Source: Arthrobacter sp. MYb214
GTDB taxonomy: Bacteria; Actinomycetota; Actinomycetes; Actinomycetales; Micrococcaceae
Length of the DNA stretch: 64,000 nucleotides
NCBI RefSeq assembly: GCF_002979865.1
Contig: NZ_PCPZ01000001.1
Location: 868,001-932,000, forward strand
Reading direction: 5' to 3'
In this document: positions 2,395 through 26,217 of the stretch, piece after piece
Position numbering within the stretch: position 1 is the first letter of the stretch
Layout of the letters: every line of letters begins with the position of its first letter
The notes under the pieces: generated by a model
Seen by the model: the letters and a program-made list of their open reading frames with translations, nothing else
Database searches by the model: none
Told to the model about the DNA's origin: nothing
Made by a program: the position numbers and the translations under genes

Positions 2395-5028
2395 ATGGCT
2401 CGTAAGAAGTCTGAAGAGATTCCAGCGGATTTCGTTGAAAATATCGTCGATATAGACGTCACCAATGAAATGGAATCATCCTTCTTGGAGTATGCCTACT
2501 CGGTGATCTACTCCCGCGCGCTTCCCGATGCCCGTGATGGGCTGAAGCCAGTTCAGCGCCGCATCCTCTTCCAGATGGCGCAAATGGGCTTGCGCCCGGA
2601 GAAGGGCCATGTCAAGTCTGCCCGCGTGGTCGGCGAAGTGATGGGCAAGCTGCACCCCCATGGCGACACCGCGATCTACGACGCCATGGTCCGCCTGGCC
2701 CAAGACTTCTCCCTTCGGCTGCCGTTGATCGATGGCCACGGAAACTTCGGATCGCTCGATGACGGCCCGGCAGCCCCGCGTTACACCGAGGCCCGTCTGG
2801 CAGCCTCCGCTGTTGCCATGACCGCTAACCTGGATGAAGAGGTCGTGAACTTCGCCCCGAACTACGACAACCAGTTCATGCAGCCCGAAGTGCTGCCGGC
2901 AGCATTCCCCAATCTGCTGGTCAATGGCACCACCGGCATTGCCGTGGGCATGGCCACCAACATGGCTCCCCACAATCTGGGCGAAGTTGTCGCTGCTGCG
3001 CAACACCTGCTCAAGGAACCTGACGCCACCGTCGAAGAACTCATGAAGTTCATTCCGGGCCCGGATTTGCCCTCGGGCGGCAGCATTACCGGTTTGGACG
3101 GCATCAAGGATGCCTACCGCACCGGTCGTGGCTTGTTCCGCACCCGAGCTACCGTGGCCCTGGAGAAGATCTCCGCACGCAAGTCGGGCCTGGTAGTCAC
3201 CGAACTGCCTTATGGCGTGGGCCCTGAAAAGGTCATCGAGAAGATCAAGGATGGCGTCAACAGCAAGAAGATCTCCGGCATCTCCGATGTTGTCGACCTG
3301 ACCGACCGGCATCACGGCCTGAAGCTGGTTATCGAGCTGAAGAACGGTTTCAACCCGAACGCTGTCCTGGCCAGCCTGTACAAGTACACCCCGATGGAAG
3401 ACTCCTTCGGCATCAATAACGTTGCCCTGGTCGACGGCCAGCCACGCACCATGGGGCTGGGCGAACTGCTCACCGTGTATGTGGACCACCGACTGGATGT
3501 TGTACGCCGTCGCACCGCGCATCGCCTGGCCAAGCGTGAAGACCGTTTGCATCTGGTGGAGGGCCTGCTGATTGCCATCGTTGATATTGACGATGTCATT
3601 GCCATTATCCGTTCCTCCGAGCAGACCGCAGAAGCACGCGAACGCCTGATGACGGTCTTCGACCTGAGCGAGCCGCAGGCCAGCCACATCCTGGAACTGC
3701 GGTTGCGCCAGCTGACCAAGTACTCCACGCTGGAGCTGGAGACCGAAGCCGAGCAGCTGCGCAACGAAATCGAGGAACTGCGCGCCATTTTGGAGTCCGA
3801 TGAGCTGCTGCGCACCCTGGTTTCCGATGAGCTCGGGGAAATGGCCGACACTTTCGGCACCCCGCGCCGGACCAAGCTGCTGAAGTCTGCTCAGCTGGCA
3901 CCGCTGAAGGGCACCGCGTTGCCTGAAGAAGTCGGGACAGGCAAGAAGGCCAAGTTGGCCATGGAAGTCTCCGACAGCCCGTGCTGGGTATTGCTCTCGG
4001 CCACGGGGCAGCTCGCCCGGACTCCTGATCGGGACGTCGTGGACTACTCCGCGGCGCGCATCAAGCACGACGTGCTCACCTCGCAGGTTGCTTCCAGCGC
4101 CCGTGGTGAGATCGGAGCGCTGACGAGTGTCGGACGGATTATTCGCATCTCGCTGATCGATGTTCCGGTGCTTCCCGAATCCCATGGCTTCCCGCAGCTG
4201 GCCCACGGCGTGCCGATCTCCGAGTTCCTCAAGCTGGGCAAGGGCGAAAGCGCGGTGGCACTGGTTCCGCTGAACCAGGTGATTGCCGTGGGCACCAAGA
4301 ACGGTGTGGTCAAGCGGGTCACCCCGGACTACCCGCTGAACCGTGACGAGTTCGAGGCGATCACGCTCAAGGACACCGACGTCGTGATTGCCGCGGCGCC
4401 GGCCGAGGATGCCGATGAGCTGGTGTTCCTGACCAGGCAGGCTCAGCTGCTGCGTTTCAGCGCTTCGGCGGTGCGTGCCCAGGGCCGCACCGGACAAGGC
4501 ATGGCCGGCATCAAGCTCGCCGCCGATGACCAGGTGATCTTCTTCGGTGTGGTTCCTGCCGGTGCTGGCGACGCGGTGGTAGCCACGATCGCTGCCGGTT
4601 CGCAGACCCTTCCTGGCACCTCGGGCCAGTCGGTGAAGCTCACCGACTTCTCCGAGTTCCCGGCGAAGGGCCGCGCCACCGCGGGCGTGCGCGCTCACCG
4701 TTTCGTCAAGGGTGAGGACTACCTGCAGCTGGGCTATGCCGGCCAGGGTCCTGCGCGTGCCAGCTCCAAGGCAGGCGTAGTGCGTGCTTTGCCTACCGAA
4801 TATGGCAAGCGCGATGGTTCGGGCGCGCCTTTGGCCCAGTCAGTGAACATCATTGGCGGAACCATTGCCGGCGGGCACGATGCTTCTGCAGCACCTGCTG
4901 CCCAGGACCTCCAGGCAACCGCGCGGCAAGAAGCGTTGATTCCCGAGACAACCAAGGCAAAAGCGGCCCCGGCCATCACGCCGGGCGAAGACGCGCTGCC
5001 TTTCGACGACGGTGGAGTAATCCTCTAA
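2395..5028 (+). CDS. parC: DNA topoisomerase IV subunit A
   Basis: 877 residues. This is the breakage-reunion subunit that works with ParE (12931-15039) to decatenate replicated chromosomes. The catalytic tyrosine is Y130 in [10 protein letters not shown], in the winged-helix domain. The quinolone-determining segment [10 protein letters not shown] (88-97) has Thr92 at the position of GyrA Ser83 and Asp96 at that of Asp87. The C-terminal beta-pinwheel domain (about 500-820) carries GRTGQGMAG rather than the QRRGGKG-type GyrA box, so this is ParC-like rather than gyrase. The Ala/Pro-rich tail ends in DDGGVIL. The start has a GAAGGAC Shine-Dalgarno at 2378-2384. It is divergent from the pat-like gene and convergent with cydDC across a shared terminator. 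Confidence 0.93.
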
Positions 5029-5099: not shown

Positions 5100-8000
5100 C
5101 TATGCGCTGACCCTGGGCTTCTGGCTTCCCAGTTCAATGCGGTGGGTGCACTGCCCGGCAAGCATCTGGTCATGGGTGATCAAGACGACGGTTCGTCCGG
5201 CAAGGGCGAGATGCAAGGTGGAAAGCAGGTCCTGGGCTTCATCCACCCCCAGATGGGCAGTCGGTTCATCAAGCAAGATGATCTGGTGGCCGCCCACCAT
5301 GGCACGGGCCACGGCGAGCTTGCACCGCTGACCGCCGGAGAGCTGGTGCCCGCCGGAACCGATGCGTGCCTCGAGGCCTTCTGGCTGTGTTGCCAACCAG
5401 TCCGACAGCCCGACTTGCTCCAGCACTTCTTCCAGCTGCGCATCGCTGCGCAGCTGGCCTTCAGTGACGCCCAGCATCAGGTTCCGGCGAATCGAGGAGT
5501 CGAAGAGGTGCGCCTCTTGCGGGCACCAGGCAACCGATGACAGGTCTGCCTGCTCTAGATCCAGCAGGTTCCCGCGGGCATCGATGCCCTTCAACTTGCC
5601 CGATTGCGCTGGCAACGCGCCCAGCAACGCGGTGAGCAACGTCGATTTGCCAGAACCCGATGGACCGGTAATGGCCGTCCATTGCCCTGCCGGGATGCGG
5701 GCGTTCAGATTCTCCAGAACTGGCGTTCCCTGCTCGTACCCGAGGCTCAGCGCTTGCGCATCGAAGCCGGCGATCCTGCTTTGCTTCACCGGCGGGTTGT
5801 GCTGCGCTGCTCGTGCGCCGTGGCTTTGCATGCCGCGTTCTTCCAGCCTCGATGACAGTACCTTCAGCGCCCGCCCCTGCTGCACCGCCAGCAGGGCATT
5901 GCCAGCGCTCTCCCCCAAGGCCAGGCCCAGGAGCACGGCCAGTGCCGTAAACGATGCGCTGCTGTGCGATAGCGCGGTGATGGCAATGGCAAGCAATACG
6001 CTGGTCAACGTGGCCAGGGCCGTGGCGCTGCCTTGGCCCAGGGCATGCCGGCGAGCGCGCTGCGTATTGCGTGCTTCGGCGTCCTGGAACCGGCCAATGG
6101 TCCGTTCCATGGCCTGATTGCTGCGCAGTGCGGACTTGTGCCGCAAGATGCCCAGCACGCTCTGGTTCATCTGCATCCGGTGGCTGAGCTGATGCACGAG
6201 GTGTTCGCCTTCAATGCGCTGCACAAGCCAACGCACCGGGAAGACCAGCACCAGCAGCGCACCGAGGGCCAGATATCCGAATTCGGGCTGGATGAAGTAC
6301 AAGGCCGTTGCTGCTGCAACCCACACTACGATTGCCTGCAGCGGCGGGAACAGCACCCGGGCCAATAGGTCGCGCAGTTCATCGACCTCGGCCAGCAAGA
6401 ATCGCAGGATGACCGAGGAACGGGTCAGCAAGCCCCACTGTGCGGGGTTGGCCACCATCGCGTTCCACATCTTCTCGCGCAAATCCGAGGCATAGGCCAG
6501 CACCGCGTCGTGAATCGCGAGCTGTTCCAGGTAGCGGAAGGCAGCTCGTCCGATTCCCAGGCCTCGGACCATCGCGAAGGCTACGGTCAGGTGCAAGATG
6601 GGAGGCTGGTAGCTGGCTTCAACGATCAGCCAACCGCTCAGGGCCGCGAGCGCCACGGCGCATAGCACGCTGACTGTCCCCCAGAGCACGCCCTTGGGGG
6701 CAGCTTTGTACCCGGCAAGCAAGTCGCGCATCGGGGTGAACTTGGACTTCACCGGCCGTTGGCCAGTGGCGCCAGGCTGCGTTGCCGCGGTGGCTCGCGA
6801 CCGGTTGCCTGCGGATTCTTCACGGTGGGCAGGGCCAGCACCATGCGCTATGCTGCCCGCACGTTCGTCCTGCCCGAAGGCGGGGTCGTGGCTGGCGACC
6901 AGCATCGCGCAGCGGGCTGGAAGTCCACTCAGCAGTTCGCGTACTTGCTGGGCGTTGCGCTCATCGAGGTGCGCGGTAGGCTCATCGGCCAGCAGCACGG
7001 TGCAGTGGTCGTCGCTGTGAACCCGCAGCAACGCGCGCAGCACTTCCAGGCGGCGCAGCTCGCCGGGTGAATATTCACCGATCGGGCGCTCGAGCATGGA
7101 CTCCATCGATAGCCGGGAGCTGAGCTCTCGGCGCAGTTCAGCCGATGCCGCGGGGGCGTCCTGGTCCAGTTGCCCGTTGCCGGTTGCTGCGTTGAATTGC
7201 GGATGCTGGCTAATCACTGCAAGCTGGCCGGCTATGAAGACCCGCCCGGTGGCCAAGGCCGGATCGAAGGTGTTGTCGCTGCTGTGCGCCTCGGCGATCA
7301 GCTTGAGCAGCGTGCTCTTGCCCGAACCGCTGGCAGTGGACAATACCAGGCGCTCCCCCGCGCGCAACTGAATATTCACGGCTTGGTGGATTGGATGCAT
7401 GCCATCGTAGCTGATCCGCAGGTCCGCGACGTCCAGGACGCTATCTGCGTTCCTGGCCGTGCTGGCACGAAGCTGATGGACCGGGGTGGCAGCGGTGATG
7501 GCTGTGTACTTCTGGTAGGCAGCCAGCCCGTCATCGGCCGCATGGTAGGCAGAGCCCACTTCGCGCAGTGCCGAGAACAGCTCGGGTGCCAGAATGAGGA
7601 TTATCAGCCCGGCGGCGAGATCCATATTCCCGCTGACCAGTCTCACGCCGATCATCACCGCGAGTACCGCCACCGAAAGGGTTGCGATCAGTTCCAGCCA
7701 GAAGCTGGACATGAATACGGTTTTCAGGTTGGCCATGGTGGCCGCCCGGTATTTGCTGCTGACGGCGGCGATGGCGCTGCCGTGCGCCCGTGCCCGGCCC
7801 AAGCCCAGCAGTGCGGGCAAGCCCTGGGCGAGTTCGTAGAGCTGGTGGGCAAGCCGATCCAAGGTGGCTTGGGATTCGTTGAGGGTGTCCTGGGTGTGCA
7901 TGCCGATCAATGCCATGAACACCGGCACCAGCGGGATCGTCAGGAGCAGCACCACTGCGCTGATCCAGTCCAGCTGCAGAATGTAGAGGCCAAGCAGTAG

Positions 8001-8429
8001 CGGGACGGCCAGGGCGCCGATGAGCGCAGGAATGAATTTGGTGAAGTAGTCATCGAGCTTCTCAAGGCCATGGCTGGCCAAGGTGGCGGTGACCGGTATG
8101 GAATGCTGTTCCGCCGCGGGGACGATGGCCGGTTGCGCGGCTTGCCTGCGCACCAGGTTCAGCCGTAGCCGTTCCTTCGCGCCCAGGCCCATGCGGCGGG
8201 CGCCGGCGTTCAATCCCCATGCGCTGAGCGCTCGAAGCGCGGCGCCGGCCAGCGCCAGGATCAGCAGGTGCGATTCATTGGCCCCTCCATCGGCCATGGT
8301 GGCGATCCATTGGCCCAGCGCGTAGGCGACGAATACCAGCCCGACGACTTTGAGCGCGGAGAACAGCGCCAAAACCAGGAATTGTCGTGGCGTGATCAGT
8401 TCACGCGGCAGGAATCGCGGGGCTGGCAT
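5100..8429 (-). CDS. cydDC: CydDC fusion: heterodimeric-type ABC exporter for cytochrome bd assembly
   Basis: 1109 residues, about twice a normal CydD or CydC. It contains two ABC-transporter half-units in one chain: membrane domain about 15-300, nucleotide-binding domain 1 about 335-525, membrane domain 2 about 575-850, and nucleotide-binding domain 2 about 890-1105. In domain 1, Walker A is ASGSGKST (366-373), Walker B is TVLLADEP (477-484) and the H-loop is His514, but the signature is YSPGE (453-457) instead of LSGGQ. Domain 2 is canonical: GPSGSGKST (922-930), LSGGQ (1030-1034), IILLDEP and His1086. The family exports thiols or affects haem incorporation and is needed for cytochrome bd maturation in the membrane. 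It is the last gene of cydA-cydB-cydDC, 27 nt after cydB, with a GGGAAAGAAG ribosome site. Confidence 0.93.
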   Translation of the reverse strand: MPAPRFLPRELITPRQFLVLALFSALKVVGLVFVAYALGQWIATMADGGANESHLLILALAGAALRALSAWGLNAGARRMGLGAKERLRLNLVRRQAAQPAIVPAAEQHSIPVTATLASHGLEKLDDYFTKFIPALIGALAVPLLLGLYILQLDWISAVVLLLTIPLVPVFMALIGMHTQDTLNESQATLDRLAHQLYELAQGLPALLGLGRARAHGSAIAAVSSKYRAATMANLKTVFMSSFWLELIATLSVAVLAVMIGVRLVSGNMDLAAGLIILILAPELFSALREVGSAYHAADDGLAAYQKYTAITAATPVHQLRASTARNADSVLDVADLRISYDGMHPIHQAVNIQLRAGERLVLSTASGSGKSTLLKLIAEAHSSDNTFDPALATGRVFIAGQLAVISQHPQFNAATGNGQLDQDAPAASAELRRELSSRLSMESMLERPIGEYSPGELRRLEVLRALLRVHSDDHCTVLLADEPTAHLDERNAQQVRELLSGLPARCAMLVASHDPAFGQDERAGSIAHGAGPAHREESAGNRSRATAATQPGATGQRPVKSKFTPMRDLLAGYKAAPKGVLWGTVSVLCAVALAALSGWLIVEASYQPPILHLTVAFAMVRGLGIGRAAFRYLEQLAIHDAVLAYASDLREKMWNAMVANPAQWGLLTRSSVILRFLLAEVDELRDLLARVLFPPLQAIVVWVAAATALYFIQPEFGYLALGALLVLVFPVRWLVQRIEGEHLVHQLSHRMQMNQSVLGILRHKSALRSNQAMERTIGRFQDAEARNTQRARRHALGQGSATALATLTSVLLAIAITALSHSSASFTALAVLLGLALGESAGNALLAVQQGRALKVLSSRLEERGMQSHGARAAQHNPPVKQSRIAGFDAQALSLGYEQGTPVLENLNARIPAGQWTAITGPSGSGKSTLLTALLGALPAQSGKLKGIDARGNLLDLEQADLSSVAWCPQEAHLFDSSIRRNLMLGVTEGQLRSDAQLEEVLEQVGLSDWLATQPEGLEARIGSGGHQLSGGQRCKLAVARAMVGGHQIILLDEPTAHLGVDEAQDLLSTLHLALAGRTVVLITHDQMLAGQCTHRIELGSQKPRVSA

Positions 8430-8456: not shown

Positions 8457-9482
8457 TTACTTGATGATGGAGACGACTCGATGAGTTTCTGGAATGTGCT
8501 CTTCGCGCAAGCGCTTGCGGAAGACCCAGTAGCTCCAGGCCTGGTACGCCAGGACCATTGGCACGCCGAAGGCGGCCACGACGCTCATGAGCTTCAGGGT
8601 GTAGGCAGTGCTGGACGCGTTAGCCACGGTCAGGTCGAAGGCCGGGTCGATGGTCGATGGCAGCACTACCGGGTAAGCGGCGGTGAAGATCGCTGCGACC
8701 CCGGCGAGCAAGGTGGCGCCCAGGGCGATGAAGGAGAGTCCCTCGCGCCCAGCGCGGCCGCTGGCTATCGAAATGGCCAGGCAGACCGCTGCCAGGCCCA
8801 ACACCGCCCAGGCGATGGTGGAATCGTTGTCCAGCAGCACCAGCAGGACCCACGCAACTAAGGGCAGGATTGCTAGCGGCAGCCAGCGGCCTACGAGCTT
8901 TCCTGCTTCATGGCGGACTTTTCCGTCGGTTTTCAACCGCAGGAATGCCAACGCATGGATCCAGCAGAACGCCACCACTGCTGCGCCGCCGAGGACGGCA
9001 TGCCAGTTCAGCCACGCGAAGGCCCCTCCGATTCGGTCGCCGTTCTCGTTCAAAGGCAGACCCAAGGTGGTCAATGCCAGCATGGCACCGACACCGAAGG
9101 CGGCCACCAGCGATCCGATTCCCAAGGCCAGGTCCCAAGCTTTCCGGGTTGCTGCGGTGATCGCCTTGCCTCGGTACTCAATGGCAACGGCACGGAAAAT
9201 CAACGCCAGCAGGACAAAGGTCAGCGGAATGTAGAGGGCCGAGAACAGCGAGGCGTACCAGTGCGGAAACGCTGCGAAGGTCGCACCGCCGGCGGTCAGC
9301 AGCCATACCTCATTGCCATCCCAGACCGGGCCGATGGTATTGAGCAAGAGCCGTTTGCGCTTCTCGGTGGAACGGCCGAGACCGATGAGCATGCCCACCC
9401 CGAGGTCAAAGCCTTCGAGGAAGAGATAGCCGCACCAGAGCAGCGCGATCACAATGAACCAAAGTGTTGGAAGCCAATCCAT
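8457..9482 (-). CDS. cydB: Cytochrome bd ubiquinol/menaquinol oxidase subunit II
   Basis: 341 residues, an integral membrane protein with eight or nine predicted helices that begins MDWLPTLWFIVIALLW, with the family motif FLEGFDLGVGML near residue 25. It pairs with CydA in the haem b/d terminal oxidase that couples quinol oxidation to oxygen reduction with high oxygen affinity. It holds no haem itself and stabilises the CydA haem pocket. A strong AAGGAG precedes ATG 9482. It lies 24 nt after the cydA stop and 27 nt before cydDC, so the three genes form one operon. Length is normal for a short actinobacterial CydB. Confidence 0.95.
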   Translation of the reverse strand: MDWLPTLWFIVIALLWCGYLFLEGFDLGVGMLIGLGRSTEKRKRLLLNTIGPVWDGNEVWLLTAGGATFAAFPHWYASLFSALYIPLTFVLLALIFRAVAIEYRGKAITAATRKAWDLALGIGSLVAAFGVGAMLALTTLGLPLNENGDRIGGAFAWLNWHAVLGGAAVVAFCWIHALAFLRLKTDGKVRHEAGKLVGRWLPLAILPLVAWVLLVLLDNDSTIAWAVLGLAAVCLAISIASGRAGREGLSFIALGATLLAGVAAIFTAAYPVVLPSTIDPAFDLTVANASSTAYTLKLMSVVAAFGVPMVLAYQAWSYWVFRKRLREEHIPETHRVVSIIK

Positions 9483-9506: not shown

Positions 9507-11105
9507 CTAGTAGGCGAAGGCCAGTACGTCGTCGTCATCGTTGTCCGGGTCCGAGGGGCCGTCCGCTGGTGAATGATCTGACGGTTCAAGCTCCGGCATT
9601 GCCGATGCCACGCCGCCACGAATGTAGCGGCTGAGCAGCACCAGTTCCACGACCAGCAGCACACCGTAGATTGTCGTGAGCGCGATCAGCGAGAAGAGCA
9701 GTTCTCCTGCGCTCACTGTCGGAGAGACCGATGCTGCGGTGTACATGAACACCTGGTCCACGCCACCCATCTGCGGGTTGGGGACTACAGTGAATGGCTG
9801 CCGGCCCATTTCGGTGAAAATCCAGCCAGTGGCGTTTGCGCCGAAGGGTGCGGCAATGCCTAGCAGGGCAAGGCGCGAGAGCCATTTGTTTTCTGGGACG
9901 GTGCCCTTGCGAGTGATCCATAGCGCAACGCCAGCAGCCAATGCCGAGAGCCCGCCGAGGGTGATCATCAAGCGGAAGCCCCAGTAGGTCACTTCCATCA
10001 CTGGCAAGTAGTTGATTTCCTGGCCTGCGTACTTGCCGAAGGATTCATCGTTCGGATAGTACTTGCCGTATTTTTCCTGGTATTCCGGAATCAGCGTGTT
10101 CACGCCCTTGATTTCGGTGGTGAAATCCCCATTGGCCAGATACGAGAGAATGCCCGGGATTTCGAAGACCGCTACGACGTTGTCGCAGTTGGTTGAACCC
10201 TTGGCGGTGATATCTCCCAAGGACAGCACCGAGAAGCCTGTTCCATCGTGGCAAGCTGCCTCCGCAGCAGCCATTTTCATCGGCTGCTGCTCGAACATGA
10301 GCTTTGCTTGTTCGTGCCCGCTCAGTGCCACACCGAGGAACGCGACCATTGCTACCGCGGCGCCGATGCGCAGGGACTTGATCCAGACTTGGTAGTCCAC
10401 CTTGTCACGGCTTTTACCGCGGCTGGGATCTTCGCCCACGACAACATATCCGTTGGCATCCACCGAGTCGATGCCTTCTTTGCGTCGGCGGTAGAGATGG
10501 AACCATGAGATGCCCAGCAGGAAGCCGCCGGCAACGGCGAAGGCACCGAAAATAGTGTGCGGGAACGTCACTAGCGCCGTGTTGTTGGTGAACACCGCCC
10601 ATGCGTCGGTCATCACGGCTCGGCCGTCAACTATTTTCGTTCCAACCGGGTGCTGCATCCATGAGTTCGCAACAAGGATGAAGTAGGCGGAAAAGATCGT
10701 TGCCAGGGATGCGCACCAGATGGTTGCCAGGTGCACGCGTTTGGGAAGCTTCTTCCAGCCGAAGATCCAGAGCCCCAGGAATGTAGATTCTACGAAAAAG
10801 GCCAGCAGTGCTTCCATGGCCAACGGCGCTCCGAATACGTCCCCTACATAGCGGCTGTATTCGCTCCAAGCCATGCCGAACTGGAACTCTTGGACAATGC
10901 CCGTGGCGATGCCCATGATGAAGTTGATCAGGAAAAGCTTGCCCCAGAATTTTGTCATTCGCAGCCAGTGCTCGTTGCCGGTGCGATGCCACATGGTTTG
11001 CAGCGTGGCCACGGTCAGGCCTAGTCCAATGGTCAGGGGCACCATCAGGAAGTGGTAGACCGTCGTAATGCCGAATTGCCAGCGGGCAATCTCTAGAGCA
11101 TCCAT
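9507..11105 (-). CDS. cydA: Cytochrome bd ubiquinol/menaquinol oxidase subunit I
   Basis: 532 residues from ATG 11105, which has GAGGA five bases upstream. An in-frame TTG at 11138 would add 11 residues but lacks a ribosome site. CydA carries haems b558, b595 and d and the quinol site. Candidate ligands are His18 (TTVYHFL), His183 (TFPHTIF) and Met370 (LPVMEV). The conserved acidic pair is Glu98 and Glu106. The quinol-loop motif is GRQPF (435-439) rather than GRQPW. The periplasmic Q-loop is of the short type and contains Cys285 and Cys307, recalling the disulfide described in mycobacterial cytochrome bd. The C-terminal tail is highly acidic. It is the first gene of the cyd operon, divergent from a BlaI-family regulator. 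Confidence 0.95.
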   Translation of the reverse strand: MDALEIARWQFGITTVYHFLMVPLTIGLGLTVATLQTMWHRTGNEHWLRMTKFWGKLFLINFIMGIATGIVQEFQFGMAWSEYSRYVGDVFGAPLAMEALLAFFVESTFLGLWIFGWKKLPKRVHLATIWCASLATIFSAYFILVANSWMQHPVGTKIVDGRAVMTDAWAVFTNNTALVTFPHTIFGAFAVAGGFLLGISWFHLYRRRKEGIDSVDANGYVVVGEDPSRGKSRDKVDYQVWIKSLRIGAAVAMVAFLGVALSGHEQAKLMFEQQPMKMAAAEAACHDGTGFSVLSLGDITAKGSTNCDNVVAVFEIPGILSYLANGDFTTEIKGVNTLIPEYQEKYGKYYPNDESFGKYAGQEINYLPVMEVTYWGFRLMITLGGLSALAAGVALWITRKGTVPENKWLSRLALLGIAAPFGANATGWIFTEMGRQPFTVVPNPQMGGVDQVFMYTAASVSPTVSAGELLFSLIALTTIYGVLLVVELVLLSRYIRGGVASAMPELEPSDHSPADGPSDPDNDDDDVLAFAY

Positions 11106-11141
11106 GGATTCCTCAACTATCGTGGGATCGAAGTTCAATCA

Positions 11142-11164
11142 CTTTTCTACGTTCCGTAGAAAAG
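11142..11164. promoter_or_regulatory. Candidate operator: perfect inverted repeat in the cydA leader
   Basis: CTTTTCTACG and its exact complement CGTAGAAAAG are separated by 3 bp (11142-11151 and 11155-11164). Further copies of the half-site TTTCTACG/CGTAGAAA lie at 11200-11206, 11291-11296 and 11395-11402 in the same cydA-blaI intergenic region. BlaI/MecI proteins bind dyads with TAC/GTA cores, so the adjacent repressor is the obvious candidate. This is an inference. Confidence 0.55.
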
Positions 11165-11264
11165 TTCTCCAAGGCCACCATAGACGATTTCGACAGCGTG
11201 TAGAAATCGAGACGATAAGCAATTTCAGAAACTGGAAACTTCGCCAGTGCGCACGTGGGCGCAA

Positions 11265-11293
11265 ATACTAAGCCTATTGACAGGGTTGTGTCT
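11265..11293 (-). promoter_or_regulatory. Putative cydA promoter
   Basis: On the minus strand TAGACA (near 11293-11288) and TAGTAT (11270-11265) are spaced 17-18 bp. The -35 element overlaps one TCTACGG half-site. This predicts a leader of about 150 nt that contains the perfect dyad at 11142-11164. Confidence 0.4.
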
Positions 11294-11394
11294 ACGGTTC
11301 TTAAAAAACCCAAGTCAACAAGTTTCACCCGCGACATTCTCGCACCTCATTGCGAAACGGGTAAAGCATGTACTCACCCCTCTCTTTTACATGC

Positions 11395-11425
11395 CGTAGA
11401 AATATTGTGGAAAGATGGCTACAAT
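11395..11425 (+). promoter_or_regulatory. Putative blaI-family promoter with operator half-site over -35
   Basis: TACAAT at 11420-11425 is a good -10. The -35 position about 18 bp upstream falls inside CGTAGAAA (11395-11402), and an imperfect mate CTTTTAC lies at 11384-11390. Repressor binding here would autoregulate the gene. Confidence 0.4.
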
Positions 11426-11502
11426 TAAGAACCCAAGCAGTGTGCTTGCACTCCATGAGTCAAGCAACCGCGTCAAAACTAATGCAAGTGAGGTACGACC
11501 TA

Positions 11503-11874
11503 GTGGCCAGCCTTGGCGATCTGGAACGCTCCGTCATGGATCTTCTGTGGGATTCTGCAGAACCACTCACCGCGAATGACCTTCGTGATGATTTGGCGGC
11601 GCTTGGCACCGACGCGAAAGAACTCGCAGTCACTACGGTGCTGACTGTGCTAGCCCGTCTCGAAAAGAAGGGTTTGGTAGAGCGCGAGCGCACTACCCGC
11701 CCTCACCGGTACGCAGCTTCATCCTCCCGTGAGGATCACACCGTTGGACTGCTCAACGACGCCCTGGGCACCGCCCAGGACCGTGAAGCAGTCCTGGCAC
11801 GATTCATCGGAGGCATCTCCCCCGACGAGGCAGCATCCCTGCGTGCTATCTTGGACTCAGTAAAGTCCGCATAA
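11503..11874 (+). CDS. BlaI/MecI/CopY-family transcriptional repressor
   Basis: 123 residues from GTG 11503, beginning ASLGDLERSVMDLLWDS, which matches the usual start of actinobacterial BlaI proteins. A GAGG lies about 10 nt upstream. The frame is open from 11368, but that extension is Cys/Arg-rich and unlike the family. The protein has a winged-helix DNA-binding domain (about 5-75; VTTVLTVLARLEKKGLVERE is the recognition and wing region) and a C-terminal dimerisation helix. BlaI repressors are inactivated by proteolysis triggered by a BlaR/MecR membrane protease, and the next gene, 23 nt downstream, encodes an M56 protease. It is divergent from cydABDC and shares operator-like repeats with it. 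Homologous to the BlaI/BlaR pair Rv1846c-Rv1845c by family and arrangement (recalled). Confidence 0.88.
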   Translation: MASLGDLERSVMDLLWDSAEPLTANDLRDDLAALGTDAKELAVTTVLTVLARLEKKGLVERERTTRPHRYAASSSREDHTVGLLNDALGTAQDREAVLARFIGGISPDEAASLRAILDSVKSA

Positions 11875-11897
11875 TTTAGAAGAACTTCGGGGACTGA

Positions 11898-12860
11898 GTG
11901 CTTCTCACCTCATATTTCCTAGCGGCGTTGGCTATCGCATTGGCGTGGCCGACGCCGTTGGCTTTATCCAAGGCTAAATGGACCGCCCGCTCACCAGTGC
12001 AAGCGGTACTCCTTTGGCAAGCCATCGCATTAGGCGGTGGACTTTCCATGATCGGCTCGATGCTTGTCTGGGGCTTGGCCCCATTGGGCGATGACCTCAT
12101 CTCCGCGCTTCATGGCGGCTGGCTCCTGATAATGGGAGATCCCAGTGTGCCCGACCCCGGCGAAGTGCACCTGTTCGCCTTGAGCGCAGCACTGCTCTTC
12201 GGATTTCACCTGGTATTAACCCTCATACGAGCGGCTTGGCGCATCTCTCGCCAACGAGCCAAGCACCGGCATCTGCTGCGCCTCTTGAGCAACCCGTCCC
12301 AGACGCGGCCAAATACCCTAGTGATTGATCACGACATGCCTGTTGCATATTGCGTGCCGGGGATTTCGCAATCGGTGACCGTGCTATCGCGCGGATTGCT
12401 CACCCAGCTCTCTGCCGAAGAGCAACAGGCGGTTATTGCCCATGAACGCTCCCATTTGGATCAACGGCATGATCTGCTGATCCTGGCATTCACGGCGTGG
12501 CACGAAGCATTGCCTTGGCTACCGACTTCACGCCTTGCCCTCGACGCAGTGCGCCAACTGATAGAAATGCTCGCCGACGACAAAGCACTGGAAAAGGTCA
12601 ATAGGCACACTTTGCTCAAAGCCATTGTCACTGTCGCCACCGCCGCAGCAATGGATGATTCGTCGTCAAAGAATCATTCGTCCAGTGCCGGCCTAGTTGG
12701 CATGCCAGATGGTGAAGTCTCCTCCCGCCGGCTGCAACGCTTGCTCTCCCCGCAGGATCCGCTGGGCCGCCCGCAGCGCGCACTAGTGCTCCTGAGCACC
12801 ATCATGTTGCTGATCTGCCCGACAGTCCTGCTCATCGCACCGCGGTTGCTGGACTGGTAG
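11898..12860 (+). CDS. M56-family membrane metalloprotease (BlaR1/MecR1-like, no sensor domain)
   Basis: 320 residues from GTG 11898. Hydrophobic helices occupy about 3-20, 35-60 and 92-112. The zinc motif HERSH (182-186) has the downstream glutamate in EMLADD (223-228), and a last membrane helix lies near 298-315. The protein lacks the extracytoplasmic penicillin-binding sensor domain of BlaR1/MecR1, so the input signal, if any, must be sensed by the membrane part or a partner. It probably cleaves, directly or indirectly, the BlaI-type repressor encoded 23 nt upstream. It is terminated by a strong hairpin and convergent with parE. Confidence 0.85.
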   Translation: MLLTSYFLAALAIALAWPTPLALSKAKWTARSPVQAVLLWQAIALGGGLSMIGSMLVWGLAPLGDDLISALHGGWLLIMGDPSVPDPGEVHLFALSAALLFGFHLVLTLIRAAWRISRQRAKHRHLLRLLSNPSQTRPNTLVIDHDMPVAYCVPGISQSVTVLSRGLLTQLSAEEQQAVIAHERSHLDQRHDLLILAFTAWHEALPWLPTSRLALDAVRQLIEMLADDKALEKVNRHTLLKAIVTVATAAAMDDSSSKNHSSSAGLVGMPDGEVSSRRLQRLLSPQDPLGRPQRALVLLSTIMLLICPTVLLIAPRLLDW

Positions 12861-12930: not shown

Positions 12931-15039
12931 CTAGACGTCGATACGATCTCGTTCAAGATCGTCGGCGCCGTCGATAATGAACTTCTTGCGAGGCGCTACG
13001 TCGGAGCCCATCAGCAGATCAAAGACCTCCTCGGCTGCCTGCGCATGCTCGATGCCGACACGGCGCAGCATACGATGACGCAGGTCCATGGTGGTTTCAG
13101 CCAGCTGGTCCGCGTCCATTTCGCCTAGGCCCTTATAGCGCTGGATCGGCTCCTTGTAGCGTCGGCCTTCCTTCTCCAAGTTGGCCAGCAGCTTGGTCAT
13201 TTCCGCCTCAGAGTAGGTGTAGATAACCTCATTCTGCTTCGACCCCGGATTGATCACCTCAATGCGGTGCAGCGGCGGAACCGCTGCATAGACGCGACCG
13301 TGCTCGATCATGGGACGCATGTAGCGATAGAACAACGTCAACAGCAATGTCCGAATGTGCGCACCGTCAACATCAGCATCAGTCATCAAGATGATCTTGC
13401 CGTATCGGGCTTGCTCAATGTCGAAGCTGCGCCCCGAACCGGCCCCAATCACCTGGATCATCGCTGCGCACTCCGCGTTCGAGAGCATGTCCGAAATCGA
13501 GGCTTTTTGCACGTTGAGGATCTTGCCTCGAATTGGCAGCAGCGCCTGGTACTCGCTGGAGCGCGCGAGACGGGCAGTGCCCAATGCGCTGTCGCCCTCG
13601 ACGATGAACAGTTCAGACTTTCCAACTTCCTTGCTGCGGCAATCGAGCAGTTTGGTTGGCAGCGAAGAAGACTCCAAAGCGGTCTTGCGACGCTGGGTTT
13701 CCTTGTGCATACGTGCCGACACGCGAGATTTCATCTCGTTGACGACCTTCTCCAGCAGCGTGGACGCTTCAGCCTTCTCGTTGCGCTTATTGGATCCCAG
13801 TCGGTCGTTGAGTGCCTTCTCCAGCACCTTGGAAACAATCTGGCGCACCTGCGGTGTACCCAAAATTTCCTTGGTCTGCCCTTCGAACTGCGGCTCTGCC
13901 AGTCGGACGGTCAGCACGGCAGTCATGCCCGCCAGCACGTCGTCCTTCTCCAGCTTGTCCTTCTGGCCGAACTTGAGCTTCCGCGCATTGGCCTCCACGT
14001 TCTTGCGGAAGGACTTGAGCATGGCCTGTTCGAAGCCGGCAGTATGCGTACCGCCCTTGGGGGTCGCAATGATATTCACGAAGCTGCGCAGCGAGGTTTC
14101 GTAGCCGATTCCCCAACGCACCGCGACGTCAACTTCGCAGACACGCTGCACATCTTCAATATGGCTGCGACCACTGCCATCGATGACCGGAACCTTTTCA
14201 TGGAACGATCCGCTGCCATGGAAACGCCAGATGTCCGTGACCGGCGAGTCGCTGCTCAGATAGTCGACGAACTCGCTGATGCCGCCATCATGCTGGAACA
14301 CTTCCTCATGAGGCCCGTCCGCACCCGGGGTATCCGGTAATCCACGTTCATCGCGCAGGGTGATGCGCAACCCAGGAACCAAGAAGGAGGTCTGGCGCGC
14401 TCGATCCTGCAAATCCTTATAGGAGAACTTCGCATCCGGGGTGAAGATATGGTTATCCGCCCAGTAGCGAATGCGCGTTCCAGTCACGCCCCGCTTGGCT
14501 TTGCCGATAACGCCCGGAGCCGTCGCCGTCTCATGAGCCTTGAAAGAAGCGTCCGCTTTCTTGCGGCCCTTATCGGTAAATTTGCCTGGCTCTCCACGAC
14601 GGAACTGCAGGCCGTAGGTCTTGCCGCCGCGGTCAACTTCGACGTCCAAACGGGCCGACAAGGCGTTGACGACCGAGGCGCCCACGCCGTGCAGACCGCC
14701 CGAAGCACTGTAGGAGCCACCACCGAACTTGCCGCCAGCGTGCAGCTTGGTGAAGACAACTTCCAAACCGCTCAAGCCTGTCTTGGGTTCAACATCGACA
14801 GGAATGCCGCGGCCGTCATCCTGGACTTCAACGGAGCCGTCAGAGTGCAAGATGACGTCAATTGCCTGGCCGAAACCGCCCAGCGCTTCGTCAACTGAGT
14901 TATCGATGATCTCCCAGAGGCAATGCATCAAGCCACGGGAGTCGGTGGAGCCGATGTACATGCCTGGGCGCTTACGAACCGCTTCCAGGCCTTCCAAGAC
15001 CGAAAGGTGCCGGGCGCTGTAATTGTCGGATGAAGCCAC
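12931..15039 (-). CDS. parE: DNA topoisomerase IV subunit B
   Basis: About 702 residues from GTG 15039, giving ASSDNYSARHLSVLEGLE. An ATG at 15063 is also in frame, but AGGAG of the ribosome site lies between the two and favours the GTG. It is the GHKL ATPase subunit of topoisomerase IV. N-box EIIDNSVDEAL, DDGRGIPV, and the lid glycines GGLHGVGASVVNALS bind ATP. The TOPRIM domain shows EGDSALGTARLARS and the metal site TDADVDGAHIRTL. The C-terminal QRYKGLGEMDADQL is diagnostic of GyrB/ParE. It lacks the large proteobacterial GyrB insert. The partner ParC lies 7.9 kb away, beyond the cyd module. Confidence 0.93.
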   Translation of the reverse strand: MASSDNYSARHLSVLEGLEAVRKRPGMYIGSTDSRGLMHCLWEIIDNSVDEALGGFGQAIDVILHSDGSVEVQDDGRGIPVDVEPKTGLSGLEVVFTKLHAGGKFGGGSYSASGGLHGVGASVVNALSARLDVEVDRGGKTYGLQFRRGEPGKFTDKGRKKADASFKAHETATAPGVIGKAKRGVTGTRIRYWADNHIFTPDAKFSYKDLQDRARQTSFLVPGLRITLRDERGLPDTPGADGPHEEVFQHDGGISEFVDYLSSDSPVTDIWRFHGSGSFHEKVPVIDGSGRSHIEDVQRVCEVDVAVRWGIGYETSLRSFVNIIATPKGGTHTAGFEQAMLKSFRKNVEANARKLKFGQKDKLEKDDVLAGMTAVLTVRLAEPQFEGQTKEILGTPQVRQIVSKVLEKALNDRLGSNKRNEKAEASTLLEKVVNEMKSRVSARMHKETQRRKTALESSSLPTKLLDCRSKEVGKSELFIVEGDSALGTARLARSSEYQALLPIRGKILNVQKASISDMLSNAECAAMIQVIGAGSGRSFDIEQARYGKIILMTDADVDGAHIRTLLLTLFYRYMRPMIEHGRVYAAVPPLHRIEVINPGSKQNEVIYTYSEAEMTKLLANLEKEGRRYKEPIQRYKGLGEMDADQLAETTMDLRHRMLRRVGIEHAQAAEEVFDLLMGSDVAPRKKFIIDGADDLERDRIDV

Positions 15040-15085
15040 TGAGCTGTTGTCTCCTACTTGCATGAGAAAGTACGTCTTATTCCAT

Positions 15086-25789: not shown

Positions 25790-25832
25790 AATCGCCCCTG
25801 TCGTTGGTTCGACAGGGGCGATTCTGCGTTTT
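25790..25832 (+). terminator. Terminator after the E2 gene
   Basis: A perfect 14-bp stem (25790-25803 with 25810-25823) with a 6-nt loop is followed within 6 nt by TTTT. It lies 34 nt after the stop. Confidence 0.85.
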
Positions 25833-25860
25833 CTACGATCAGTCGAAAATAGATTAGGCT
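25829..25860 (+). promoter_or_regulatory. Leaderless promoter with TTTTCTACG motif over -35
   Basis: TAGGCT (25855-25860) ends six bases before ATG 25867. The -35 position overlaps TTTTCTACG (25829-25837), with CGAAAA at 25844-25849 as a partial mate. The motif repeats the half-site found between cydA and the BlaI-type gene. Confidence 0.45.
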
Positions 25861-25866
25861 AGCATC

Positions 25867-26217
25867 ATGACTATTCTTCTTTCAATCCTGATTTTCGTGC
25901 ATATCTTGGGTGCAGCAGCTATCTTCGGCGGCTGGCTTGCTAATTTCAAGACTCCAACCGTCTCCGTATGGCAGTGGTATGGCGCTATCGTTCAGGTCGT
26001 AACGGGTCTGGCCATGGTCGGTATTCTCGAGGCTGGCGACGGTTCGCCAAACCACATGAAGATTGGAATCAAGTCGCTGATTGCAATCATTATCTTGGTG
26101 GCAGCGTTCCTTGGCCGGAAGAAGATGAAGAACGGCGAGGAAGTTCCTACGGGGATCGCTCACGCCGTGGGTGGCATGGCCTTGATCAACATCGCCATCG
26201 CGGTACTCTGGAACTAA
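25867..26217 (+). CDS. Small four-helix membrane protein, unknown function
   Basis: 116 residues, almost entirely hydrophobic. Helices are about 2-24 (LLSILIFVHILGAAAIFGG), 36-54, 66-84 and 98-115, with a short charged loop GRKKMKNGEEVP between helices 3 and 4. His12 lies in the first helix. I do not recognise a named family with confidence. The start has no Shine-Dalgarno and is predicted to be leaderless. It is isolated by terminators on both sides and carries an upstream motif like that of the cyd/blaI region, hinting at a respiratory or membrane-stress role (inference). Confidence 0.7.
   Translation: MTILLSILIFVHILGAAAIFGGWLANFKTPTVSVWQWYGAIVQVVTGLAMVGILEAGDGSPNHMKIGIKSLIAIIILVAAFLGRKKMKNGEEVPTGIAHAVGGMALINIAIAVLWN

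Follow-up and report, generated by a model that had tools for sequence, protein, structure and literature searches.

In Arthrobacter sp. MYb214, a gene for a BlaI-type repressor (blaI) and a gene for an M56 protease without a sensor domain, both on the plus strand, lie head-to-head with the cytochrome bd genes cydA-cydB-cydDC on the minus strand, and it seems likely, from the distribution and conservation of a 19-bp operator, that BlaI controls cyd together with a wider set of respiratory genes. The locus is part of a window of 64,000 nucleotides (the whole stretch of DNA analysed; contig NZ_PCPZ01000001.1, positions 868,001 to 932,000 of the forward strand). In the original prediction the pair was a proteolysis-controlled switch for the terminal oxidase. 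That it regulates cyd and itself is very probable, given operators in 18/18 genomes of the genus and at 80/80 of the best Micrococcaceae loci and the co-occurrence of the operator with BlaI. As a description of what is controlled, a terminal-oxidase switch is too narrow, as the operator is also found before ctaE-qcr, ctaB, the ATP synthase operon, hmp, SURF1 and other genes.

The divergent arrangement of the blaI/M56 pair and cydABDC, already recognised in that prediction, is borne out by Pfam and NCBIfam matches. The blaI gene (11503..11874, plus strand) encodes a winged-helix repressor of the BlaI/MecI/CopY family of 123 amino acids (aa), whose protein (11503-11871) matches Pfam Penicillinase_R (PF03965) with 74.5 bits against a cut-off of 22.6 and is the only PF03965 match in the whole source genome of 3.72 Mb. 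The gene behind it (11898..12860, plus strand) encodes a BlaR1-type M56 membrane zinc protease of 320 aa with an HEXXH motif and no C-terminal sensor domain; its protein (11898-12857) matches Peptidase_M56 (45.1 bits, cut-off 31) and Peptidase_M48, and no further Pfam family at E 0.001. On the minus strand are the proposed targets, cydA (9507..11105; cytochrome bd subunit I, Pfam Cyt_bd_oxida_I with 501 bits), cydB (8457..9482; subunit II, Pfam Cyt_bd_oxida_II) and cydDC (5100..8429; thiol-reductant exporter, NCBIfam CydD and CydC both above cut-off), the last being a fusion in a single open reading frame (ORF) of 1109 aa. The gap between the cydA ATG (11105) and the blaI GTG (11503) measures 397 nt.

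This gap holds four operators, best written as TTTCTAC-N5-GTAGAAA, a 19-bp form that accommodates the degenerate copies. The perfect inverted repeat reported earlier is exact, reading CTTTTCTACG-TTC-CGTAGAAAAG at 11142-11164 with arms of 10 bp and a spacer of 3 bp, and contains operator 1, the perfect dyad TTTCTAC-GTTCC-GTAGAAA (11144..11162). Three additional half-sites had been placed at 11200, 11291 and 11395; the sequence is there, but each proved to be part of a degenerate 19-bp dyad and the half-site reading was rejected. These dyads are operator 2 (TTTCGACAGCGTGTAGAAA, 1 mismatch; 11188..11206, 44 nt from operator 1), the weak operator 3 (TGTCTACGGTTCTTAAAAA; 11289..11307), which scores 12.1 with a position weight matrix (PWM), and operator 4 (CTTTTACATGCCGTAGAAA, 2 mismatches; 11384..11402). 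A site 43-46 nt from operator 1 (at most 2 mismatches) is found in 18/18 genomes of the genus. The fifth dyad of the window, missed by the original prediction, is located upstream of a small membrane protein gene (TTTCTACGATCAGTCGAAA, 1 mismatch; 25830..25848). With at most 3 mismatches, TTTCTACG-N3-CGTAGAAA gives five matches in the window, against a mean of 0.08 and a maximum of 1 in 100 dinucleotide shuffles.

Promoter-like sites occur on the cyd side (11294-11265) and on the blaI side (11397-11425), with a mean of 0.6 such sites in the shuffles. The claimed overlap of the operators with the -35 elements of both genes holds, at the level of consensus matches, for operators 3 and 4, which contain the first hexamers of the cyd-side and blaI-side promoters; it does not hold for the perfect dyad, which is found about 100 nt downstream of the predicted cyd promoter. 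Dyads lying over -35-like hexamers of both divergent promoters, consensus matches only, would fit repression.

The original prediction had also suggested scanning the whole genome for the dyad, and this yields 3 exact sites, 5 with at most 1 mismatch and 12 with at most 2, the reversed pattern giving 0 and 7 in the same genome at the latter two thresholds. The numbers are thus enough to establish the strong sites as real, while the weak ones need other evidence: their counts are near those of the reversed control (12 vs 7 and, for the longer form with at most 3 mismatches, 17 vs 15), so counting them genome-wide was abandoned as insufficient and they rest on conservation instead. Three of the 12 places are in the cyd/blaI gap and the other nine are single sites at nine further promoters. 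Exact dyads precede the flavohaemoglobin gene hmp and a Pyridox_ox_2 (PNPOx) gene paired with an APP1 phosphatase gene; the remaining sites precede the small membrane protein gene (116 aa, the dyad at 25830-25848), DUF3099-SURF1 (in a gap common with a fabG-like gene), ctaE (followed by a cytochrome c gene), ctaB, carD, a membrane protein gene followed by copC, and atpI-atpB (AtpI being named from its place, with no Pfam family). The four dyads at cyd/blaI, the exact ones at hmp and PNPOx and the weaker ones at ctaE, ctaB and atp suggest, by their number and quality, a graded response in which cyd would be shut most tightly.

Conservation was examined in 18 genomes of the genus, with the neighbours of dyads identified by tblastn. 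Sites with at most 1 mismatch number 61 (2-5 in each genome), against a total of 7 for the reversed pattern, and 59 of the 61 fall at just four promoters, those of cyd/blaI, hmp, PNPOx/APP1 and the small membrane protein (the other two are in loci L097 and L117). Such a site is present in the cyd/blaI gap of 18/18 genomes and at the small membrane protein gene of 6/18. For the weaker targets, a PWM was built from 84 sites (at most 2 mismatches), none of them from ctaE, atpI or ctaB, and applied to these genes in 54 loci. Upstream of each of ctaE(-qcr), ctaB and atpI(-atpB), 18/18 genomes show a dyad whose position is fixed. It is the top-scoring position in 53/54 loci (L088 has a higher one elsewhere) and scores at least 8.8 in 52/54 (7.4 in L063 and 2.7 in L072), with only 2 other such positions in about 198 kb. 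Invariant columns make up 13/14, 13/14 and 11/14 of the arms at the three genes, against 41/120, 6/120 and 38/103 of the flanks; at ctaB the arms are kept while the spacer is free (0/5 columns invariant).

At the family level, we took the best 80 of 571 BlaI loci as Micrococcaceae. All 80 carry a dyad with at most 1 mismatch upstream of blaI, usually two or three of them, while half-sites at a spacing of 3, 4, 6 or 7 occur in 0/80; cydA is divergent from blaI in 76/80 (75 by script, plus L213 by its matches). At the order level, BlaI was called at E <=0.001, paralogues included, in 36 of 99 genomes, and the exact core TTCTAC-N5-GTAGAA occurs in 15 of these 36 and in 0 of the 63 genomes lacking BlaI (p 2.6e-8 by Fisher's test, which ignores relatedness). 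Among the best 30 order BlaI loci cydA is divergent in 25, and 24 of these 25 gaps hold a dyad candidate (a weak one in L134), a count without shuffle control. Some families have TACTAC or TACGAC arms instead of TTCTAC. The six BlaI proteins aligned from loci of these types have AYTTVMTVL in place of the A[VLAT]TT[VL][LH]TVL of the others, and this joint change of motif type and BlaI sequence suggests that BlaI is the protein that reads the dyad.

Reading by eye, with Pfam support for some, covered the dyads found in seven order genomes together with some of the loci that carry the core. The richest description comes from one genome (G088) with 15 exact cores against 0 in the control. Its haem, copper and oxidase sites are at a gene for a HemQ-type chlorite dismutase, SURF1, ctaC (behind an Fe-S assembly gene), ctaB and a TlpA-like gene; the HemQ-type gene sits behind a flavin amine-oxidase-family gene, presumably HemY. 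Further sites in this genome are, among others, at sdhC-sdhD (in a gap common with a sugar nucleotidyltransferase-like gene), carD (by likeness), isocitrate lyase, Pyridox_ox_2, a winged-helix regulator/ABC pair and blaI itself. In other order genomes the dyad is found at hmp, HemQ, YceI, a cytochrome c gene behind ctaE, CtaG, CopC, a TlpA-like gene with a multicopper oxidase, and universal stress proteins (Usp). Six neighbours of order dyads (L274, L282, L247, L248, L265 and L160) match no Pfam family, and reading by eye recognised no neighbour for six other dyads (L250, L251, L277, L281, L159 and L154).

In the class-wide comparison of 98 genomes, cydA is present in 62. A BlaI-type dyad lies within 300 nt upstream of cydA in 16 of the best 30 cydA loci, where shuffles lead one to expect 0.06; BlaI and M56 are next door in 9 of the 16 and not in the other 7. 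The search expression was written after dyad types A and B had been seen, and 4 of the 16 genomes (G000, G022, G183 and G150) were already known, so that this result is support rather than an independent test. Type B, GTACTAC-N5-GTAGTAC, was also counted by itself at up to 1 mismatch, and its enrichment across the class was rejected, since it occurs in 32/98 genomes and exceeds its reversed control in only 9/98. Of 30 type-B loci, 25 match no query protein, 3 match only a FabG, ABC or YceI gene elsewhere in the locus, and 2 (L305 and L313) have BlaI at the dyad. Nine further class sites (L315-L320 and L322-L324) comprise 3 at cydA, 2 before a WhiB/copC-like neighbourhood and 4 with nothing recognised. 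Three genomes of one family (f35) carry a type-B dyad just upstream of cydA without an adjoining blaI (L315, L318 and L320), and in one of them a dyad also immediately precedes blaI, which is on a different contig (L313, with cydA in L315).

Both proteins have the features expected of a repressor and protease of these families. The closest relative of BlaI by sequence in PDB is 2g9w (E 8.7e-23), which we take to be M. tuberculosis BlaI (Rv1846c), the partner of BlaR Rv1845c; it reads AYTTVMAVL at the motif that varies with dyad type, and a TACTAC-type operator is predicted for it, unlike the TTCTAC type found here. F101 of BlaI is invariant in 19/19 aligned proteins and presumably occupies the position at which the S. 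aureus protein is cleaved. In the M56 protein the zinc-site residues H182, E183, H186 and E223 are invariant in 14/14 aligned sequences, and HEXXH is present in 79 of the best 80 Micrococcaceae loci, two M56 ORFs of which are short (160 and 166 aa). A cysteine in an AYCxP motif (Cys152), about 30 residues before HEXXH, occurs in 76 of these 80 loci and in 26 of the best 30 order loci, and may be a sensing or zinc-switch residue. The structural model of the protein has a mean predicted local distance difference test score (pLDDT) of 90.5, and its first Foldseek match is BlaR1 (8exs; E 2.2e-4), which with a template modelling (TM) score of 0.36 and a root mean square deviation (rmsd) of 19 lends weak support. 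BlaI and M56 belong to their families, but the M56 protein does not belong to the beta-lactam receptors, as it matches only Pfam M56 and M48 over its 320 aa and its relatives have at most 346 aa in 80/80 loci.

In the mechanism that we propose, BlaI and the sensor-less M56 protein would form an autoregulated BlaI/BlaR-type switch with aerobic respiration as its regulon. BlaI dimers would bind the TTTCTAC-N5-GTAGAAA dyads and repress, strongly at cydABDC and blaI itself (four dyads), hmp and PNPOx/APP1, and less so, from one degenerate dyad each, at ctaE-qcr, ctaB, the ATP synthase operon, DUF3099-SURF1, the copC-containing operon and carD. The state of the membrane or of respiration would activate M56, BlaI would be cut and the set derepressed, and oxidase and coupling capacity would thereby be tuned together. 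Release of BlaI through proteolysis by M56 is probable, while the signal may be respiratory state, copper or haem supply, or wall damage.

The families themselves are best known from beta-lactam resistance. In the BlaI-BlaR1 and MecI-MecR1 systems of S. aureus and B. licheniformis, repressor and M56 protease share one operon and autoregulated dyads. The pair described here resembles them in its BlaI-fold repressor and M56 zinc protease, with BlaR1 as best fold match, and differs in lacking an extracellular penicillin-binding sensor and in having respiratory targets. M. tuberculosis BlaI/BlaR is similar in that it includes the closest solved relative by sequence, has a sensor-less M56 partner and counts the ATP synthase operon as a target. 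The abstract of Sala 2009 reportedly states that beta-lactams release BlaI and gives five loci, including atp, blaC-sigC, rv1456c and rv3921c. In the papers cited here, M. tuberculosis BlaI is described as the blaC repressor with sigC and the atp genes in its regulon (PMC5473688, PMC8265638), is said to bind the cytochrome bd and ATP synthase promoters, a result credited to Sala 2009 (PMC5473688), and is named as regulator of the atp operon in a review (PMC5874750); repression of that operon by mycobacterial BlaI is supported by electrophoretic mobility shift assays and quantitative reverse transcription PCR (PMC12565901). The M. tuberculosis locus, with its blaC-sigC target and beta-lactam response, differs from the present one, where blaI is head-to-head with cyd, no class-A beta-lactamase exceeds the cut-off and operators precede ctaE-qcr, ctaB, hmp, SURF1 and other genes. 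Among the papers listed in literature searches, none was recognised as reporting a respiratory BlaI regulon outside mycobacteria.

The mycobacterial case lends some weight to the view that the same operators and regulon respond to cell-wall damage or beta-lactams, with respiration adjusted secondarily. The original prediction had dismissed a beta-lactam response for want of a penicillin-binding sensor domain, and this argument is weak, as mycobacterial BlaR also lacks the domain and is still discussed as controlling BlaI and BlaC (PMC5473688). Our genome offers one class-A-like match, just below the Pfam cut-off (20.0 vs 22 bits), on a contig that holds none of the 12 dyads with at most 2 mismatches, and no beta-lactamase gene was seen beside these dyads (classes B-D were not searched); taken together these observations argue against a beta-lactamase role here, and with the absence of a penicillin-binding domain from M56 they make a wall or beta-lactam signal unlikely. 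Marginally less probable still is a signal of copper or haem supply, sensed in the manner of enterococcal CopY, by which a shortage of cofactor would induce the copper-free bd oxidase and assembly factors. The neighbours CtaB, SURF1, CtaG, CopC, TlpA-like, HemQ-type chlorite dismutase and multicopper oxidase would suit such a signal, as would the widespread AYCxP cysteine before the M56 zinc site. CopY is of the same superfamily, and BlaI scores 25.2 bits against NCBIfam CopY_TcrY, far below the cut-off of 121.95 and so outside that family. Copper binding by CopY depends on a CxC motif, and the BlaI sequence has no cysteine at all, so it cannot bind copper in that fashion; it also differs from CopY in its protease partner and in targets beyond copper, hmp, ATP synthase, sdh and carD not being copper genes.

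It is very improbable that the dyads belong to another regulator of respiration, with blaI merely a neighbour. An Rrf2-family regulator does adjoin hmp, and a WhiB gene stands beside one dyad in another family. However, every one of the best 80 Micrococcaceae loci has the dyad before blaI, it is found there even in a genome that has cydA on a different contig (L313 and L315), the core is absent from the 63 order genomes lacking BlaI, and motif type tracks BlaI sequence.

Several observations weigh against control of a respiratory gene set by BlaI. The weak sites in the genome do not far outnumber those of the reversed control, the reversed core itself has 14 matches in 12 of the 99 order genomes (71 in 15 for the core), the test of co-occurrence takes no account of relatedness, and type-B dyads show no enrichment across the class. 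One cyd/blaI gap of the order (L132) has no dyad candidate, and neither do 14 of the best 30 class cydA loci. Hardly any variation is seen in the spacers at ctaE and atpI either (4/5 and 5/5 columns invariant), and part of the conservation there may thus serve the promoter itself. Some of the neighbours, namely carD, YceI, Usp, PNPOx and isocitrate lyase, are not obviously respiratory. Finally, knockdown of BlaI in M. smegmatis did not raise ATP (PMC12565901).

A broader reading, which we put forward tentatively and hold to be somewhat less probable than its negation, is that the aerobic respiratory chain of Actinomycetes has an ancient master regulator in the sensor-less BlaI/M56 pair, with control over bd and aa3 oxidases, haem and copper assembly, cytochrome c, sdh, ATP synthase and NO detoxification. 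The pair would read the respiratory state of the membrane through M56, possibly via the AYCxP cysteine, and beta-lactamase control would be a late side branch. Control of ATP synthase by mycobacterial BlaI has already been reported. If true, the broader reading would give a switch known from antibiotic-resistance textbooks a central place in the energy metabolism of a large bacterial class, would explain the presence of mycobacterial BlaI on the ATP synthase operon as well as the sensor-less BlaR, and would have one regulator coordinate the bd oxidase, the bc1-aa3 branch and ATP synthase. What is predicted can be stated concretely as one 19-bp operator and a named list of promoters, in a host that is non-pathogenic.

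Some targets and neighbours deserve separate mention. The Pyridox_ox_2 gene (L005:1060-1491) is among the strongest dyad targets, has its APP1 partner in the genus and recurs in G088, G022 and G041. The dyad upstream of carD, which encodes a global RNA polymerase-binding regulator, occurs in two genera (L017, by Pfam CarD, and L256, by sequence likeness). Between the ctaB dyad and the ctaB start, the leader contains a block that is nearly invariant in the 18 genomes of the genus (L073-L090) and varies less than the spacer of the dyad. One dyad of family f35 precedes a WhiB gene with a copC-like gene behind it (L317:1669-1986), for comparison with which a mycobacterial WhiB4-BlaR link is reported (PMC5473688).

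Directly behind the operator at 25830-25848, the window encodes the small membrane protein of 116 aa (25867..26217, plus strand), which has a short leader and matches no Pfam family. The cyd-blaI-M56 block is flanked by ORFs resembling type II topoisomerase subunits (2395-5028 and 12931-15063, named by eye), and in G088 (L325) a similar topoisomerase-like ORF is followed directly by blaI-M56, without cydA.

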